64,000 nt of DNA, from positions 248,001 to 312,000 of the forward strand of contig NZ_JAFLNF010000004.1 of assembly GCF_017313085.1 (NCBI RefSeq). Reading direction: 5' to 3'. The position numbers and the translations under genes are program-made. The notes below the pieces were generated by a model. That model saw only the letters and a list, made by a program, of their open reading frames with translations. It ran no database searches and was not told the origin of the DNA. Source of the DNA: Roseibium limicola. GTDB lineage: Bacteria; Pseudomonadota; Alphaproteobacteria; Rhizobiales; Stappiaceae. Of the stretch, positions 42,854 through 52,727 are shown in pieces; the first letter of the stretch is position 1, and every line of letters starts with the position of its first letter.

Positions 42854-44572
42854 CTATTCTGCCGCTGACAGGTCGGGAGAGGCGAGTGGGACGGCGGCCT
42901 CCAGCGGCGGACGCGTTGAGGACTTGCTGCGGAAGCTTTGTGCGCTTGTGCGTGCCAGCAGGATGACAGGCAGCAGCCCGACAAGAACAATCGCCAGCGC
43001 TGGCAGGGCGGCATCCTCGAAGGCCTCGCGTGAGGCTGCTTCAAAGACCGTGGTGGCCAGCGTTTCGAAGTTGAAAGGACGCAGCAGAATGGTCGCCGGC
43101 AGTTCCTTCATGCAATCGACAAAGGTCAGCAGCAAAGCCGATAAAAGCACCGGCTTGAGGATCGGCAGGTGAACCTGCCAGAGCGTTTGCGAGGCTGTGC
43201 GCCCCAGGGTGCGGGATGCCATGTCGAGGTGGGGGGAGATCTTGGCAAAGCCGCTGTCGATCTGGCCGAAGGAAATCGCCAGAAACCGAACTGTGTAGGC
43301 ATAGATAAGCCCGACGCCTGAGCCGAGCAGCAGCGGCCCGGTTGCATAGCCGAAGGTGCTCTTTGAAAAGGAATTGAGCACGCCGTCAAGATTGGCGAGA
43401 GGCACCAGAATGCCGACGGCCAGAATGGTCCCGGGAATGGCATAGCCGATGGCGGAAAACCGCACGGCAAGGGAGAGGATGACGTTCTTTTGCAGGCGCA
43501 TGCCATAGGCGAGGGCGACAGACAGACTGACGGTCAGCACCGATGCAATGCAGGCCAGAAACAGGCTGTTGCTGATCGCCGCGAGAAACGCCCCGTCCAT
43601 AAGCTGCTCAAGCCTGCGAGAAGCCATCTTGACCAGAATGTAGGCTGGAATGCCGAAGCCGAGCAGCACAGGCAGCGCACAGGCGGTAAAGGCAACCGTA
43701 GCGCGCCAGCCCTGCAACTTGAACCGCGAAGGCTGAAGGTGCTTGGTGGAATGGTTGTGGAATTTCTGATGCCGTCGTCCCTGGCGCTCGACCCACAACA
43801 GGGCAAACACCATCAACAGCATGGCAACGGCCAGCTGAGCTGCGCCTTCCAGACTGGATCGGTTCAGCCAGGTCTCATAGACGGAGAAGGTCAGCGTGCG
43901 AACACCGAAGAAGGTCACGGCGCCGATGTCGTTGAGGCACTCCATCAACGCGAGGGAAACACCGACGACTGCTGCCGGTCGGGTCATCGGCAAGGCCACG
44001 GTGAAGAACACCCGCCAGGGAGAGGCGCCAAGCGTCCGCGATACGTCGAAGACCGAGGCGATCTGGATCAGGAAACTCGCCCGGCTGGTCAGGTAGACAT
44101 AAGGATAGAGCACAAGGCTCATCACAAAGATCGCACCGCCGAGCGATCGAACTTCCGGAAACCAGTAGTCACGTGAGGTCTTGAAGCCAAAGACGGATCG
44201 CAGGGCGGACTGCAGCGGACCGGTGTAATCGAGCGCCTCTACATAAGCAAAAGCAACGATATAGGTCGGAATCGCCAGCGGGATCAGCAGGATCCAGTCG
44301 AACCAGCCACGCCCTGGAAACCGGCACATGGTGGTGAGCCAGGCGGTTCCGACACCCAGCACGGTGGTCAATACCCCGACCCCGGCCATCAGGATCAGCG
44401 TGGTTGCCATAGACCGAGGCAGGACGGTGGTGAGCAGGTGATGCCAGACGTCACCAGCGGGCGACAGCGCAATCCAGCCGATGGCAAGCAGGGGAATAAG
44501 CACAAGGGCCGCCGCTACCAGCGCCAGCCCTGACCACGCACCCTCTGAACTCTTGCCGGCATCACCGATCAC
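42854..44572 (-). CDS. Ferric iron ABC transporter permease (double-domain, FbpB-like)
   Basis: A 572-residue inner-membrane permease made of two fused permease halves, as in FbpB/SfuB. There are about twelve hydrophobic segments. The two EAA-type loops are DVSRTLGASPWRVFFTVALPMTRP and MASRTLGRTASQTLWQVHLPILKP. A cytosolic linker at about residues 255-285 is basic (ERQGRRHQKFHN). It follows the iron-binding-protein gene by 75 bases, with a strong hairpin between. No ATPase gene is adjacent, since the next gene on this side is the convergent scoB, so the energising subunit must come from elsewhere. Confidence 0.92.
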   Translation of the reverse strand: MIGDAGKSSEGAWSGLALVAAALVLIPLLAIGWIALSPAGDVWHHLLTTVLPRSMATTLILMAGVGVLTTVLGVGTAWLTTMCRFPGRGWFDWILLIPLAIPTYIVAFAYVEALDYTGPLQSALRSVFGFKTSRDYWFPEVRSLGGAIFVMSLVLYPYVYLTSRASFLIQIASVFDVSRTLGASPWRVFFTVALPMTRPAAVVGVSLALMECLNDIGAVTFFGVRTLTFSVYETWLNRSSLEGAAQLAVAMLLMVFALLWVERQGRRHQKFHNHSTKHLQPSRFKLQGWRATVAFTACALPVLLGFGIPAYILVKMASRRLEQLMDGAFLAAISNSLFLACIASVLTVSLSVALAYGMRLQKNVILSLAVRFSAIGYAIPGTILAVGILVPLANLDGVLNSFSKSTFGYATGPLLLGSGVGLIYAYTVRFLAISFGQIDSGFAKISPHLDMASRTLGRTASQTLWQVHLPILKPVLLSALLLTFVDCMKELPATILLRPFNFETLATTVFEAASREAFEDAALPALAIVLVGLLPVILLARTSAQSFRSKSSTRPPLEAAVPLASPDLSAAE

Positions 44573-44647: not shown

Positions 44648-45694
44648 TCAGCTCTGGGGTCCGTTGTCGAAGCCGACGCGGTCCACCATTTCGCTTGCTG
44701 CTTTACGGAAGTCGGCGACTTCGTGCAAGGGGAGGCTGTCCGGCTTCAAGGTTCCCCACGACAGGACGCGCTCTGAAACAGGAACCTCCGGATCGACCGG
44801 GTATTCGAAATTGGTCTCGGCATAGATGCCCTGGGCCTGATGCGAAGTCAGGAAGCTGATGAACTTCATGGCCGCTTCCTTGTGTGGCGCATATTTGGCA
44901 AGAACCACCCCGGACAGGTTGACATGGCTGCCGCGATTGTCCGAATTCGGGTAAAGCAGCTTGACGGAAGCAGCCCATTCCTTTTGTTCCGGATCCTTAT
45001 CGTTGGTTTCCATCTGACCCATGTAATAGGTGTTGCCAAGGGCGATGTCGCATTCGCCGGCGTAGATCGACTTGACCTGTGCGCGATCGTTGCCGGTCGG
45101 CTTGCGGGCGAGATTATCGCGAACAGCGGTCAACCAGGTTTCGGTTTCTGCTTCGCCATGATGGGCGATCATCGAGGCGATCAGGCCGAGCGTGTAGTCA
45201 TGCTGGCCCGAGCGGGTGCAGATACGGCCACGCCATTTCGGGTCGGCCAGGTCCTCGTAGTCGATGCTGTCCTGTTCGACGCGTTCACGCGATGCATAGA
45301 CGATCCGCGCACGGCTGGTCAGTCCGATCCAGGCGCCGTCGGGGTCCTGAAATTCTGCCGGAACTGTGCCTTCCAGCTGCTCAGCCGGAATGGGAGCAGT
45401 GATACCAAGGTCCTTGGCGCCGGACAGTCGTCCGATATCCACAGTCAGCATGACATCTACGGGTGAGTTCTCACCTTCCGTTGCGATACGTTCGCCGAGC
45501 CCCTTGTTGGAAAAGACCACATTGGTCTTAATGCCGGTTTTTTCTTCAAAAGCGTCCAGCAGTGGCTGGATCAGATATGGCTGGCGATAGGAGTAGATGT
45601 TGACTTCTTCGGCTTGCGATGCGGCCGGAAGGGCCAGAGAAAGCGGAATGCAGGAAATGGTGGCCAGAGCCAGCCGATGCCAGTTGCGTGTCAT
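44648..45694 (-). CDS. Ferric iron ABC transporter substrate-binding protein
   Basis: A 348-residue periplasmic iron receptor of the FbpA/FutA family. The signal peptide runs to about residue 28 (LALPAASQAEE), followed by VNIYSYRQPYLIQPLLDAFEEKTGI. The neighbouring tyrosines in GNTYYMGQ correspond to the Fe3+-binding YY pair. Other iron or anion ligands are expected in the SYRQPYL and VDVMLTVDIGRL parts. The upstream region contains an Irr-type iron control element (45795-45811), so expression is probably iron-dependent. It forms an operon with the double permease. Confidence 0.93.
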   Translation of the reverse strand: MTRNWHRLALATISCIPLSLALPAASQAEEVNIYSYRQPYLIQPLLDAFEEKTGIKTNVVFSNKGLGERIATEGENSPVDVMLTVDIGRLSGAKDLGITAPIPAEQLEGTVPAEFQDPDGAWIGLTSRARIVYASRERVEQDSIDYEDLADPKWRGRICTRSGQHDYTLGLIASMIAHHGEAETETWLTAVRDNLARKPTGNDRAQVKSIYAGECDIALGNTYYMGQMETNDKDPEQKEWAASVKLLYPNSDNRGSHVNLSGVVLAKYAPHKEAAMKFISFLTSHQAQGIYAETNFEYPVDPEVPVSERVLSWGTLKPDSLPLHEVADFRKAASEMVDRVGFDNGPQS

Positions 45695-45997: not shown

Positions 45998-48900
45998 TTA
46001 CTCAGCCAGCACCCGCTGCGAGGGAAACCGGATCTCGACCAGAGTGCCCTGTTTCGGGGTGGAGTCGATATGGAAATTCGCCCGGTTGGCTTCGGTCAGC
46101 GCCTTGGTCAGCGGCAGGCCGAGGCCTGTGCCCCCTCCCAGACGCGATGTGTGCAGCTGGCGGAACGGCTCCATCGCCGCCGACAGATCTCTCTCGCTCA
46201 TGCCCGGACCTGTATCGCGTACCCGCAGAACCACCTCGCCATTGTCTTCCAGTGCGGTGGAGATGATCACCTGGCCTCCGGACTTGTTGAACTTGATGGC
46301 GTTGGACAGCAAATTCAGCGTGATCTGACGCAGGGAGCGCGGATCGGCGACCACATTCGGCACGGCATCCGGCAAGCTGGCGCGGATGATCACCCGGTCG
46401 CGGTTGGCTTGTGGTTGCATCAGCGCCACGCATTCGCGAATGACCTCATTGGAGGACACGGCAGAGAATTGCAGATCCATCTTGCCGGCTTCGATCTTCG
46501 ACAGATCAAGCAGGTCGTTGATCAGGCTCAGAATATGCGCGCCAGAGGTGCGTACGTCCTTGAGATATTCCTTGTAGCGCTCGCCACCAATCGGGCCGAA
46601 GCGTTCCTCGATCATGACCTCCGAAAAGCCGATGATGGCATTCAGTGGCGTGCGGATTTCATGACTGATCTTGGCCAGGAAGTCTGACTTCTGTGAACTG
46701 GCGTTTTCTGCCTGACGCTTGGCCTCGGTCAGTTCCTCCTCGGCCTTCTTCCAGTTCGTTATGTCACGCAGGACGGCGCAGAATTTCGTCTGGTCGCCGC
46801 TGCCCGTAACGCGGCCAATGGTCATGAACAGCGGGATCAGTCCCCCCGAAGTGACCTGTCCCAGAACCTCGCGTCCGTCATTCAGCAGGCTGGCGACACC
46901 GTTGCGCGACAGTCCGTCGAGGTAGTCGAGGGCGGAGCGGTGACTTTCCGGCGCCAGGAAGCTGGTCAGCGCCTCGCCGACGATATCTCCGCGGCTGGTG
47001 GAAAACAGGGCTTCCGCCGACCGGTTGGACTTCAAGATGGTGCCGTAGCGATCCATGACCAACACGCCGTCTGTCGCGGTCTCCAGGATGGCATCGAGCT
47101 CGTCGACACGCTCACGGGCCTTGGACAGCTCACTCTCCAGCGTCTCCTGTTCTGTGCGAGCGGCGAAGGCAGGTGAGGGGAAATCGGTCAGGACGGCTGT
47201 CTGGCTGGCAGCCCGAACAGGTACGGTTTCCGCCGCCCGTTCCATGATCGAGATCATCAGGCCCTGGCCGCCATTCCATGGAACCGTGTGCATGCGAGCA
47301 TCGACCTTGCGGGATCCACCCTCGGCGAGCCGCACCTTCAGTGTGCCGTCGATTGTACCTTCCAGCTCGGTATCGGGAAAATCGTCATCATCATCGGCGA
47401 AGACCGCTTCCAGACCACCGGCTTCGGTCAGGGCCTGCAAACCGGTGTAGCCGAGCAGGCCAAGCAGGGTGTCATTGGCGTAGAGCACATCCCGGTCGCG
47501 AACGATGGCAATGCCGATTGGCAGCCGATCCAGCAGGCGCGGATCAATCGGACCAGCGCTGGGTGGCGTGGTGTCACGTTCGACCTTCGCGGCGAGTTCC
47601 GGATCCAGTGGCGGTTCGTCTTCGACCAGATCGTCTTCAAGCCGCGCCCCAAGGGCTTCGGCAATCTTGCGGAACGCGGCGATCTCCGGCTTTGAAAGTC
47701 GGGAGGTATCCACAGGCACCAGATGAGCGCGTCGACGCGGCATGGGGACCACGTTGCTGGCCGGAACCGCCACTTCGGCTTCCTCTGTGGTGCCTTCGGT
47801 TTCAGTGGTCGGCTTAACAGGGACGTCAGAAGATGTGTCGTCCAGCTGCGGACCTGCAGAGCGAGGCGTCGAGCGCTCCTCATCGTCCAGCGTCAGCAGG
47901 TCTTCGTTGAATTCTTCTGCCAGATCTGCCGCCAGATAGTCTGTCGTCTCACTGCGAAAACTTTCTTCATCGGCACCGGATACATCGTCGTCCCCATCCT
48001 TCGCCTCGTTTTCGGTCTGAGAAGAAATGCTTTCGGAAGCCGGGGTATCATCTTCGGTTTGGGCAGACGTCTCGATAGCGGACGGCAGGTCGTCATTTTC
48101 CGCTGCCGGCACGTCCGTGGACTTCGGTGTGAAAAGGTCGCGCGATGTCTGGACCGGCACAGCCGTGACATCATCTTCGGTCGATGTTTTGACAGGCGTG
48201 CCGCTCTTGTAGCTCTTGGCGAGGCTGGCGACAGCGGTCTCGATATCCTTTGGGTTGAGCGCTTGCTTGCCCTGAATGCCAGTAAGCACACCTTCTTCGG
48301 CGTCAATTTCTGCCTCGTGCAGGCTCAGCAGCGGATTGGCATCGTCCTGCTCAAGCGATGGCTGTTCGTCTTCTGCTGATGGCTCCGGAGCCTCCTCGGG
48401 AACGGTCTCATCTGCCGGTGTCTCATCCGACGGTGTCTCATCGGATGAGACCTCAGCTACATCCTCCCGTTCGGAAAACCCAATCTGTGACGCATTGCTG
48501 CTGTGGTCATCGCCGGCGTTGGCCAGAAGGTCGGTCTCTTCAGCGGGCTCAGAAGGGGCATCCGCAATCGCGTCATCGTCTTGGGGGGCGCCCAGAACAG
48601 CGGTGCTTTCCGTCACTTCGTCCGAGATCGGCAGGCTTGCAGCGTCCATTTCCGTTTCGAGAGAGAGCGTGTCCGTCTGCGCGTCGACGGTTGATTCTTC
48701 AGGGGTCTCGGTCGGCGTCAGGAGTACACTTTCGCTGCTCTCAGCTGTCGGCGCTTCTGTCTTGATGTCGTCAGAGGGGGTATCTGCTGCCGTCTCGGCC
48801 TTGGGCTGTTCCGTGTGGCGTACAGAAGCGGTGGTGCGACCTGACGCGGTATCCGTCATTTCTGGTGTGAAATAACCACCAGCGCGTGCGGCCAGGCCAC

Positions 48901-50920
48901 TGATCAGTGCAGACGCTCGGGCGCCAAGGGCCAGGCCTCCCCCATTGGGCTCACGCTGATGCTTGATCGGGGTCAGATCGAAGGGCGGGGTTTCCGTTGC
49001 GGTGAAAGGCGAAACGGGCTCTGTTTCTTCCGTCGGCTGTTCGTCTTCGGTGAATTGCGCGTCGGCGCTTGCGTCAGAGGCCGTATCAGATGCCAGTTCT
49101 GGCTCTTCTTCTGCCTGCTCTTCAATTAGCGCATCGCTCTGTTCGCTCAATGCAGTCGCATCAGGCGTGTCTGAGGCGTCAGCAGCGTCCGCAGCATTGG
49201 CCTCCGAGGTCAGGAGTGCGCCGGTGGCTGTCGAAGCGGCATGCGCGGGAATGGACCCGTCGCTCGTCAGGCCCTCATCTGTAACACCGGTCTCCTTCTC
49301 CGCATTCAGACTGTCGGCATCATAATCGTCATCAGAAGACGGTAGAGCGGCCGGTTCTTCTGCGAGAGGTGCATTCTTGTCTTCGACCATATCGACCAAA
49401 CGGCAGACACCAAAGCCGCGATAGCCTTCAAAGATCCGGTCCCGATCGAAGGCCGGCAGAGCCGCCATGTCGACAGGAACACGCAGCTGCGCACCGCTGA
49501 CCGGCCAGAGCACGGTCTTGCCGCTCCAGGTGTCCCGACGGTCGAGGGCACGTGAAATCTCACCGCGGGTATCGAGGCCGAACCGGAGCGCGACTTCGCG
49601 CCAGGTGAGGCCGACGATGTCGCCAGCAGTCGGACCAAGTGCTTCGCTGAACTCGTCGGACATAAAGGTAAAGCGCTGTTCGAGATCCATCTGCCAGGCA
49701 AAGCGGATCGGACGGCGGCGTGGCTGGAAGACAAAGCCTTCTGGCTCGGCCATCTCGGAGACCTCGGAAGCTGCAGGTTCAGCTGCAACCTCTGCCGCAG
49801 GCTCATCGGCATCGTTGATGGCCTCGTCAGACTCTGCCACTGCTGTGTCGGCTTGCCCCGCATCGTCGACTGCTGCTGTCGGCTTGCCGGACGAAGAATG
49901 CTCAACTGCTTTGGTCTCTTCAAGTGCAAGCGAGGCGTCTTCCGTCTCCTCGGTCTCAGCCTTTTCATCCGCCTCGGCCGGCTCGGCAATTTCCATGTCC
50001 TGGGCACGACCCCAGCCGCTTTCTGCTCCCGCAGGCAGGCTCAGGGCATAAGGATGTACCGGCAGATCGGCACCCGCGGTTTCGACAGGTGGCTCAAACT
50101 CCGAAGCAGGCTCCTCGATCTGCGCGTGACTCAGGGCGGCGTCTTCGTCAGTGGCTTGAGCATCCTCGACCTGAGGGCCCTCTTGGGCCGTTGCATCGTC
50201 CGTTGTGAATTCATCTGTTTCCAAAAGAGAGGCCGCAGTCTCTTCCTCAATCTCAATGCCCGGCTCAATGTCGGGCAGCCATGGGCCGGAACCGGTGTTC
50301 TCAGCCAGGATCAGGACCGTATCAGCGGCGGCAGCCTTCAGGCTCGTATGCCTCATGCCGTCCAGCACCAGGAAGTCGTTGCCGCCTGTTTCGCCGGAGG
50401 CATGTACGCTTTGGGGGAAGCTGGCGGTTGCCAGATCCAGGTCACCGGATTGAGCAAGAACGGCGCCTGCTGCATCGAGCACGGCCGCCGTCCGGTTGCG
50501 TCCGGCGATGAGGTCGAGATAGGCGGGAAGCGGCGCGTCGGTTAGCGCCAGACTGCGGTCGGCGCAGATGACAAGCGCTGCTGAATGACCATTCGGCAGG
50601 GTTAGCCTTTGTCCCTGGCAAGTCAGCAGCATAACCCGCAGGCCGCGATAAAACCGCAGCCGATCCGTCGTCATCCGGTCTTCCGGACCGCTGGTGGCAA
50701 TCCGGGCGATGTGCGGACGGGCAGGGGACTTGGCAAGCGCACTCAGATGCGTCAGGCCATCGGCATCCTTGACGGAAAAGAACCGGGCACCAGCGGCATT
50801 GGCCCAGAGGATCCGGGCGCCGTCAGCAGACCAGACCCAGGCAGCCCTGGGGTCCTCCAGCAGCGTCGAAACCGCTGGCAAAGAGCTGATTTCCATGAAG
50901 GTTTTTAGGTGGGTATCCAT
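45998..50920 (-). CDS. Giant PleC/PdhS-like PAS sensor histidine kinase with long acidic disordered regions
   Basis: A 1640-residue protein with no signal peptide or clear membrane segment. Layout: PAS-like sequence at about 10-110; acidic low-complexity at 210-400; a PAS-like unit at 405-515 (FTFMSDEFSEALG); a very long acidic Glu/Asp/Thr/Ala/Ser-rich stretch at 520-1090; a PAS at about 1130-1240 (LPIGIAIVRDRDVLYAND); and a PAS at about 1270-1385. The kinase core has His1420 in HEIRTPLNAIIGFSE, the N box near 1533 (NLLSNAIKF), and G boxes DTGPGMS and GGGTGLGLPL. The phosphotransfer domain resembles the PleC/DivJ/PdhS family that acts on DivK. The start MDTHLKTFME (50920) is favoured; ATG at 51055 is the alternative. 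Confidence 0.88.
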   Translation of the reverse strand: MDTHLKTFMEISSLPAVSTLLEDPRAAWVWSADGARILWANAAGARFFSVKDADGLTHLSALAKSPARPHIARIATSGPEDRMTTDRLRFYRGLRVMLLTCQGQRLTLPNGHSAALVICADRSLALTDAPLPAYLDLIAGRNRTAAVLDAAGAVLAQSGDLDLATASFPQSVHASGETGGNDFLVLDGMRHTSLKAAAADTVLILAENTGSGPWLPDIEPGIEIEEETAASLLETDEFTTDDATAQEGPQVEDAQATDEDAALSHAQIEEPASEFEPPVETAGADLPVHPYALSLPAGAESGWGRAQDMEIAEPAEADEKAETEETEDASLALEETKAVEHSSSGKPTAAVDDAGQADTAVAESDEAINDADEPAAEVAAEPAASEVSEMAEPEGFVFQPRRRPIRFAWQMDLEQRFTFMSDEFSEALGPTAGDIVGLTWREVALRFGLDTRGEISRALDRRDTWSGKTVLWPVSGAQLRVPVDMAALPAFDRDRIFEGYRGFGVCRLVDMVEDKNAPLAEEPAALPSSDDDYDADSLNAEKETGVTDEGLTSDGSIPAHAASTATGALLTSEANAADAADASDTPDATALSEQSDALIEEQAEEEPELASDTASDASADAQFTEDEQPTEETEPVSPFTATETPPFDLTPIKHQREPNGGGLALGARASALISGLAARAGGYFTPEMTDTASGRTTASVRHTEQPKAETAADTPSDDIKTEAPTAESSESVLLTPTETPEESTVDAQTDTLSLETEMDAASLPISDEVTESTAVLGAPQDDDAIADAPSEPAEETDLLANAGDDHSSNASQIGFSEREDVAEVSSDETPSDETPADETVPEEAPEPSAEDEQPSLEQDDANPLLSLHEAEIDAEEGVLTGIQGKQALNPKDIETAVASLAKSYKSGTPVKTSTEDDVTAVPVQTSRDLFTPKSTDVPAAENDDLPSAIETSAQTEDDTPASESISSQTENEAKDGDDDVSGADEESFRSETTDYLAADLAEEFNEDLLTLDDEERSTPRSAGPQLDDTSSDVPVKPTTETEGTTEEAEVAVPASNVVPMPRRRAHLVPVDTSRLSKPEIAAFRKIAEALGARLEDDLVEDEPPLDPELAAKVERDTTPPSAGPIDPRLLDRLPIGIAIVRDRDVLYANDTLLGLLGYTGLQALTEAGGLEAVFADDDDDFPDTELEGTIDGTLKVRLAEGGSRKVDARMHTVPWNGGQGLMISIMERAAETVPVRAASQTAVLTDFPSPAFAARTEQETLESELSKARERVDELDAILETATDGVLVMDRYGTILKSNRSAEALFSTSRGDIVGEALTSFLAPESHRSALDYLDGLSRNGVASLLNDGREVLGQVTSGGLIPLFMTIGRVTGSGDQTKFCAVLRDITNWKKAEEELTEAKRQAENASSQKSDFLAKISHEIRTPLNAIIGFSEVMIEERFGPIGGERYKEYLKDVRTSGAHILSLINDLLDLSKIEAGKMDLQFSAVSSNEVIRECVALMQPQANRDRVIIRASLPDAVPNVVADPRSLRQITLNLLSNAIKFNKSGGQVIISTALEDNGEVVLRVRDTGPGMSERDLSAAMEPFRQLHTSRLGGGTGLGLPLTKALTEANRANFHIDSTPKQGTLVEIRFPSQRVLAE

Positions 50921-51520
50921 GGAGCGGCTCCGCAGGCTCAGGCAGGTGACTATATCCGGCAAACGTTGCTTCGGGTCGGCGGTGGTAAATACCTTGTTAA
51001 TAACGGTATTCAGCCCGTTCGTCCACGGGAGGGCGTGGTCTAAGTCCCGGGACATGAAGGCGTGGTTAATTGCCAGTGTAATATTTGCGGTCCCTCATGT
51101 CTCATGGTAAAGATCTGACAGCCTAACTGAAATGGTCCGTGGGAGGATTGGCCATGTCGGTTTGGAGCTGGATTTATACGGTAAGACTTGAAAGACGTTT
51201 CGGAGCCGAGATCTCCATGGCGGGCCTGCACGATATGGTCCGCAGCGGCACATCTCGCGTTCCGGGTCCGGTGATGATCGGGTGACCGAGCCTTGGGCTT
51301 CCAGCCCGTCCCGCCGTTTGAAACAAGAAGAGGTTCGGCATGACCAGTGGGTAAAACCTGACTGGACTTGTCCCAGAAAAACCTCCAGCCTCCATGAACT
51401 TTAGAGACGCCTTGATTTCAAGGGCTGCCCGGTTGGCGGGCGACAGCCGCGCGGTAGGTGCGGTCGGGCCTTTTTGAGGATGGTCTCCTTCGTCGTGATC
51501 CGAGTGCAAGGAAGCAATGA
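50921..51520. other. Intergenic region between kinase and first phasin
   Basis: A 600-base region. It holds the kinase promoter (minus), a possible 43-codon gene (51154-51285) and the phasin promoter. A GC-rich stretch with GGTCGGGCCTTTTTGAGG near 51466-51483 looks terminator-like. No other gene is supported. Confidence 0.5.
51154..51285 (+). CDS. Possible small protein of 43 residues
   Basis: The frame MSVWSWIYTVRLERRF...VPGPVMIG has a good ribosome-binding site (GGGAGGATT, seven bases before ATG) and host-like codons. It is basic in the middle and starts with an aromatic patch. It is not similar to any family I recognise (it is not DUF1127). It stands alone between the divergent kinase gene and the phasin gene. 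It may be a real short protein or a chance frame. Confidence 0.4.
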   Translation: MSVWSWIYTVRLERRFGAEISMAGLHDMVRSGTSRVPGPVMIG

Positions 51521-51904
51521 ATGGCCAATGACAAAAGCGGGTTCGAAGTGCCGGACCAAATGCGTGACTTCGCTGACAAGAGCGTCGACCAGGCGCGCAA
51601 GGCGTTTGATGATTTCATGTCGATGACCCAGAAAGCTGTCGCGAATGTCGAAGGCTCGGCCAGTGTGGCACAGTCTGGTGCGACCGACGTGAACAAGAAA
51701 ACCCTCAGCTATGCGGAAGAGCATGTTGATGCGGCTTTCAAGTTTGCGCAGCAGATGGTGCGTGCCAAGGATGTCGATGAGGTTGTTTCCCTACAGCGTG
51801 ACTATATGCGCAAGCAGATGGAATCTCTCGGAGAGCAGACCCGTGACCTGAGCGCGACTGCGACCAAGGCTGCCAAGAAGGCCAGCGACGCTGCCAAGGA
51901 ATAA
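51521..51904 (+). CDS. Phasin family protein (short)
   Basis: A 127-residue phasin, an amphipathic helical protein coating polyhydroxyalkanoate granules. The family core QARKAFDDFMSMTQKAVANVEGSA and AEEHVDAAFKFAQQMVRAKDVDEVVSLQRDYMRKQMESLGEQT is clear. The C-terminus ATKAAKKASDAAKE is alanine/lysine rich. GGAAGC precedes ATG. Short of Leu but rich in Ala, Lys and Asp, it matches the phasin_2 type of alphaproteobacteria. A second phasin gene follows 304 bases downstream with its own promoter region. Confidence 0.92.
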   Translation: MANDKSGFEVPDQMRDFADKSVDQARKAFDDFMSMTQKAVANVEGSASVAQSGATDVNKKTLSYAEEHVDAAFKFAQQMVRAKDVDEVVSLQRDYMRKQMESLGEQTRDLSATATKAAKKASDAAKE

Positions 51905-52208: not shown

Positions 52209-52727
52209 ATGACTGACGCAGCAACCACTGCCAAAACAGCCCCTAAGGGCCGCACTACAAAATCCACCAAGACCGGCGCCGCCGCTGGAAATCCTTTCAT
52301 GGATTTCGAAGCTTTCGCGATGCCGAGCATGGAAGTTCCAGACTCTGTTCGCGAAGCCACCGAGAAGGGTATTTCTCAGGCGCGCGACGCTTACGACAAG
52401 GTCAAGTCTGCTGCTGAAGAAGCAACGGACATGATGGAAGATTCCTTTGAGACCTCCCGCCAGGGCGCGGTTGAGTTCAATCATAAGGCAGTCGATCTTG
52501 CCAAGACAAACACCGACGCCACTTTCTCCTTCTGGAAGGACGTGGTTTCCGCCAAGTCGGTCGCCGAAGTGATTGAGCTTCAGTCCAGCTTTGCCCGTCA
52601 GCAGTTCGACGCTCTGACATCCCAGGCCAAGGACATGCAGGAATTTGCCACCAAGCTCTCTACAGAACTTGGTGCTCCGGTAAAGTCCGCAGTGGACAAG
52701 GCTACCAAGGAATTCAAAGTCGCCTAA
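52209..52727 (+). CDS. Phasin family protein (long)
   Basis: A 172-residue phasin. A basic, threonine/alanine-rich N-terminus (about 1-28: TAPKGRTTKSTKTGAAAG) precedes the helical phasin core (VREATEKGISQARDAYDKVKSAAEEATDMMEDSFETSRQGAVEFNHKAVDLAKTNTDATFSFWKDVVSAKSVAEVIELQSSFARQQFDAL). The basic tail may touch DNA or the granule surface, by analogy with PHA-binding nucleoid-associated phasins. That is inference. AGAAGACATC precedes ATG. Confidence 0.93.
   Translation: MTDAATTAKTAPKGRTTKSTKTGAAAGNPFMDFEAFAMPSMEVPDSVREATEKGISQARDAYDKVKSAAEEATDMMEDSFETSRQGAVEFNHKAVDLAKTNTDATFSFWKDVVSAKSVAEVIELQSSFARQQFDALTSQAKDMQEFATKLSTELGAPVKSAVDKATKEFKVA

Follow-up and report, generated by a model that had tools for sequence, protein, structure and literature searches.

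The kinase gene in the window (the whole 64,000-nt stretch of DNA that was analyzed) is, by its sequence, a Hyphomicrobiales PdhS/CbrA orthologue, a known type of cell-cycle kinase. The reading we favor, with a probability of about 60%, is that its product is a soluble DivK kinase whose folded parts assemble and whose acidic linkers act as tunable spacers that carry docking motifs. The kind of gene is thus already known; what appears to be new is that charged, disordered linkers with conserved helices occur order-wide. CbrA/PdhS is a central DivK kinase of the Hyphomicrobiales, symbionts and pathogens included, and the acidic chains, which are common in it across the order, may tune the gathering of partners at the cell pole. 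Table 1 lists the features discussed.

Table 1. Features of the pdhS/cbrA locus in window coordinates; residues are numbered from the ATG at 51055.
Feature	Position	Strand	Remarks
ABC permease, likely fbpB counterpart	42854..44572	-	From gene order
ABC solute-binding protein	44648..45694	-	Downstream of pdhS; where S. meliloti has the fbp genes next to cbrA
pdhS/cbrA CDS	45998..50920	-	Kinase gene of the window; 1640 aa from ATG at 50920
HisKA + HATPase_c, residues 1441-1685	46001..46735	-	Pfam
PAS domain, residues 1314-1440	46736..47116	-	Pfam, orthologue alignment
PAS domain, residues 1165-1274	47234..47563	-	Pfam, orthologue alignment
Neck with conserved helix LSKPEIAAFRKIAEALGAR, residues 1109-1164	47564..47731	-	Orthologue alignment, AlphaFold2
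Acidic disordered linker 2, residues 559-1108 (550 aa)	47732..49381	-	25% D/E, 4.5% K/R
Helical island 2 in linker 2, residues 924-952	48200..48286	-	GI.G..PL.P.EIE.AV..LA; 48/48 across three genera
Helical island 1 in linker 2, residues 704-726	48878..48946	-	GARASALISGLA; 42/42 genus members, not found outside the genus
Embedded PAS domain, residues 442-558	49382..49732	-	117 residues in 81/81 aligned orthologues; median 71% identity to query
Acidic disordered linker 1, residues 259-441 (183 aa)	49733..50281	-	29% D/E, 2% K/R
N-terminal folded region, residues 46-258	50282..50920	-	Two consecutive PAS-like units, AlphaFold2 pLDDT mostly >90
CtrA-type box TTAACAAGGTATTTAC	50985..51000	-	64 nt upstream of ATG 50920; single match in window, 0.05 expected
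Divergent phasin gene (Phasin_2)	51521..51904	+	Conserved neighbor of pdhS
Second phasin gene	52209..52727	+	Conserved neighbor of pdhS

The gene and its kinship

The open frame extends upstream to an in-frame ATG at 51055 (minus strand, 51055 to 45998), which would give 1685 aa; because residue numbers are counted from there, 45 must be subtracted to obtain those for the start at 50920. The latter is the likely start, since the conserved CtrA box falls between the two ATG codons and since orthologues have a GGAG motif directly 5' of the aligned ATG. The original prediction of a kinase of about 1640 residues at 45998-50920 thus concerned a real open frame, which is likely the CDS. It had also called the protein soluble, and no transmembrane segment was found, the top 19-residue Kyte-Doolittle mean being 1.18; with a mass above 100 kDa (1640 aa), the protein has both features by which the PdhS/CbrA class of large soluble kinases is defined (>100 kDa, no transmembrane segment; PMC3577659).

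That the gene is a PdhS/CbrA orthologue, as had been proposed, follows from four independent lines: the best family match, the kinase tree, the fbp-cbrA-phasin gene order, and the CtrA box. NCBIfam NF041593 (PdhS) was the top family match at 734 bits, the runner-up family scoring 196. The 2000-bit equivalog cut-off of this model, which is a threshold of the database and no biological property, was reached neither by our protein nor in any of the 397 genomes of the order, and it was thus apparently set for Brucella itself. In the kinase-core tree, the protein groups with the PdhS proteins of the order, inside their clade, and the PleC-like and DivJ-like kinases of the same genome form the nearest outside group; the names of these two loci come from their architecture and a reading of their DHp sequences. 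A strict regular expression for the DivK-class DHp signature gave no match in most PdhS orthologues, and the tree was used instead. It bears out the DivK-directed type given originally, and the genome encodes a DivK with 75% identity to a DivK query of Caulobacter. The catalytic motifs are intact: His1465 (His1420 from the 50920 start), HEIRT, an N box at 1581, G1 at 1614, and G2 at 1640. With the family match, the tree, the gene order, and DivK in the genome, the predicted DivK-directed type is well supported, and CbrA of S. meliloti is such a kinase (PMC11500502). Going by the HEIRT motif only, the enzyme probably has phosphatase activity too and would then be bifunctional. PdhS-type kinases, namely Brucella PdhS and S. 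meliloti CbrA, localize to the old pole (PMC7003649).

The order of genes in the window, ABC permease, binding protein, pdhS, phasin, and phasin, is that of the cbrA neighborhood of S. meliloti, in which fbpB and SMc00777 flank cbrA (PMC11500502) and SMc00777 is the phasin gene phaP1 (PMC12542648). The divergent phasin was present at every family locus with sufficient flanks and at 20 of 20 order-level loci, two of them by weak matches only. A phasin gene or pair lies divergent to pdhS/cbrA in many families, tying a cell-cycle kinase locus to storage-granule proteins.

Of 116 orthologues, 74 have a CtrA-type box ahead of the gene, as against 4.6 expected from shuffles; the box test found none upstream of pdhS in genera g6 and g7. 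CtrA occupies the cbrA promoter of S. meliloti in ChIP-seq (PMC4433202), and we infer that expression of pdhS may be controlled by CtrA, with the tabulated box as the candidate in this genome. An additional conserved half box, a second TTAACC, lies ~69 nt further upstream of the CtrA box (near 51069).

Folded domains and acidic linkers

About 750 acidic low-complexity residues had been predicted, and ~733 were found; these are divided, however, into two linkers (183 + 550) on either side of the PAS domain at 442-558, which had been missed. One unbroken acidic domain was accordingly rejected as a description, a PAS of invariant length being embedded within it. The Pfam matches (PAS, HisKA, and HATPase_c) all lie toward the C-terminal end, whereas alignment of 81 family orthologues delimits conserved folded blocks at 51-167, 442-558, 1109-1145, 1165-1274, and 1314-1685. 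AlphaFold2, run with 60 orthologous sequences, gave confident folds for residues 46-258 and for the PAS at 442-558. The two PAS-like units of the former were recognized in the model by the succession of its strands and helices, and Foldseek matches of the N-terminal/middle-PAS model were overwhelmingly PAS proteins. In orthologues of genus g6 (L084-L098), the N-terminal PAS pair and linker 1 have been lost and the protein starts with the middle PAS; these parts are thus dispensable in that genus.

Over most of both linkers, the AlphaFold2 pLDDT is ~40-50, i.e., they are predicted to be disordered, and they evolve fast, so the disorder suggested at the outset is upheld. Folding of the acidic region as known domains had been named beforehand as evidence against the original prediction; neither linker is so folded, whereas the embedded PAS is. 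Within linker 2, short helices are predicted at 712-722, 935-950, and 1027-1053. The net charge per residue is -0.27 in linker 1 and -0.20 in linker 2. None of 837 180-residue segments in 36 other genes of the window had at least 24% D/E, the maximum being 21%.

Charge pattern, and length variation in relatives, had also been proposed as checks. Net charge is negative in 68 of 68 orthologues for linker 1 and in 81 of 81 for linker 2, counting sequences in which the linker has at least 50 residues. Lengths range from 4 to 298 for linker 1 and from 95 to 678 for linker 2, the latter varying from 364 to 623 inside one genus, and identity to the query is ~20%. Over 14 close pairs, dN/dS is ~0.2-0.7 in the linkers vs. 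0.02-0.07 in the kinase, and the linkers evolve ~10 times faster; from these values they are translated, in frame, and weakly constrained. Of the many short acidic repeats originally described, the low complexity stands but a repeat expansion does not. Growth of the acidic region by tandem repeats was rejected, as the window contains no tandem array but one of 38 bases (2.5 copies of a 15-bp unit).

Two islands in linker 2 stand out as conserved (Table 1), and island 2 has no other occurrence elsewhere in the genome. In genus g7 (L068, L069, L074, and L083), linker 1 contains another short conserved sequence, about RWGMAGGGLFGFASA, which suggests that the linkers may carry lineage-specific motifs.

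Matches to the PdhS model at E <1e-100 occur in 271 of the 397 genomes of the order. Among the matches listed, orthologue frames that do not run off a contig end span 933 to 1855 aa, and the median PdhS frame is 1282 aa in the 74 genomes tabulated. The protein is indeed far longer than Brucella PdhS, as originally stated, but 1640 aa is not exceptional for the order, and it is Brucella PdhS that lies toward the short end. Acidic stretches of ~100 to 740 residues were seen in 20 of 20 order loci, which had been chosen mainly for long frames. A whole-protein scan of genome contigs picked low-complexity peptides and yielded only three useful relatives, all from metagenome bins. A full-text search of open-licence papers returned none that describes PdhS as intrinsically disordered, although this is only a weak indication that there is none; disordered CbrA/PdhS linkers that occur across the order with conserved charge, and whose conserved helices differ between lineages, are apparently undescribed so far.

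Possible roles of the linkers

We propose that the kinase would be made under CtrA control and would feed back on CtrA via DivK, DivL, and CckA. Its folded parts (the N-terminal PAS pair, the middle PAS, and the PAS-PAS-kinase block) would serve in sensing, dimerization, multimerization, and partner binding. The linkers would serve as swollen, charged spacers, which would hold a dense cluster at the pole in a soluble, dynamic state and determine the reach of the sensing parts, and the two conserved helices of linker 2 would be putative docking motifs. Assembly by the folded parts and the solubilizing, fluidizing, and docking roles of the linkers are suggested by analogy with PopZ, whose acidic linker has -0.28 charges per residue; a longer linker makes PopZ condensates more mobile, and less charge reduces mobility (PMC9512792). 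When Brucella PdhS is overproduced in E. coli, it makes polar foci, soluble and reversible, to which DivK and FumC are recruited, and it runs as large multimers (PMC2957392); because this much shorter protein makes foci, linkers of such size are unneeded for them.

The alternative that survives best, although we think it unlikely, is that the linkers are passive, nearly neutral spacers, acid only for solubility and drifting in length and sequence without function. The range of linker 2 within a single genus, the low identity, and the high dN/dS would all be expected of it. However, all orthologue linkers examined carry net negative charge, dN/dS stays <1, and short helices have been retained in all 42 members of one genus and in all 48 of three genera.

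More doubtful is a reading, proposed originally, in which the acidic region is itself the driver of a condensate or scaffold at the pole, so that PdhS would be a kinase with a built-in hub. The charge of both linkers is near that of the disordered region of the genome's own PopZ, the two conserved helices of linker 2 could be stickers, and the disordered domain of Caulobacter SpmX gathers DivJ (PMC8849385). Self-association is nevertheless disfavored by the strong like charge and the scarcity of aromatic residues in the linkers (2-3%), and no clear surplus of hydrophobic low-acid stretches was found in linker 2, the value being hardly above that after shuffling (1.74 vs. 1.52). Foci are already made by the much shorter Brucella protein, and PopZ with a longer acidic linker has a higher saturation concentration (PMC9512792). 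We thus regard the folded parts as likelier than the acidic region to drive assembly. That the linkers are regulatory decoys or brakes, for example by mimicking a nucleic acid or by keeping the PAS sensors off the kinase until binding of a basic partner, is very improbable: the strong negative charge and the conserved neck helix joining linker 2 to the PAS-PAS-kinase block are compatible with it, but it has no known partner and nothing specific in its favor.

If, as we favor, the linkers tune clustering, the orthologues form a natural series of 933-1855 residues for testing how disordered linkers control kinase clustering and signaling, and the two islands of ~25 residues in charge-conserved linkers are defined targets for finding missing kinase partners. 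A bolder extension, which we hold only tentatively, is that the PdhS/CbrA kinases of the order bear their own PopZ/SpmX-like acidic scaffold together with lineage-specific docking helices, making the DivK kinase a tunable polar hub in which linker length would set cluster dynamics and signaling.

Comparison with known systems

PleC and DivJ share the DivK class and are the closest kinase-core relatives in the same genome, but they are membrane-bound, have different sensor parts, and lack acidic linkers. Brucella abortus PdhS (NF041593) is the best family match and likewise soluble, its C-terminal part binding DivK and its N-terminal part FumC; the model has 1041 residues, however, vs. 1640 here, where the acidic linkers are far longer. 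S. meliloti CbrA, known as a DivK kinase, shares the gene order (fbp genes, cbrA, phasin SMc00777) and is a soluble PdhS-type protein, the comparison being one of gene order and published features. SpmX of Caulobacter also ties a disordered region to the control of a DivK kinase, but it is a separate membrane protein acting on DivJ from outside the kinase chain.

PopZ differs in being no kinase, in its unrelated folds, and in its proline content (~23% in Caulobacterales vs. 8% here). Its C-terminal domain, PF10691, is absent from the Pfam matches of the kinase, and the genome encodes a separate PopZ (L172:1492-2328, minus strand). The acidic disordered region of the latter has ~175 residues at -0.29 charges per residue and is thus about twice as long as that of Caulobacterales PopZ (mean 93 residues, PMC9512792). 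The lengths of PdhS and PopZ gave a Spearman coefficient of 0.34 (n=74, uncorrected for kinship), which we do not count as evidence of co-variation. The kinase nonetheless resembles PopZ in having a long disordered region whose strong negative charge is conserved, and in both proteins an acidic, disordered linker of conserved charge and variable sequence lies between conserved ends.
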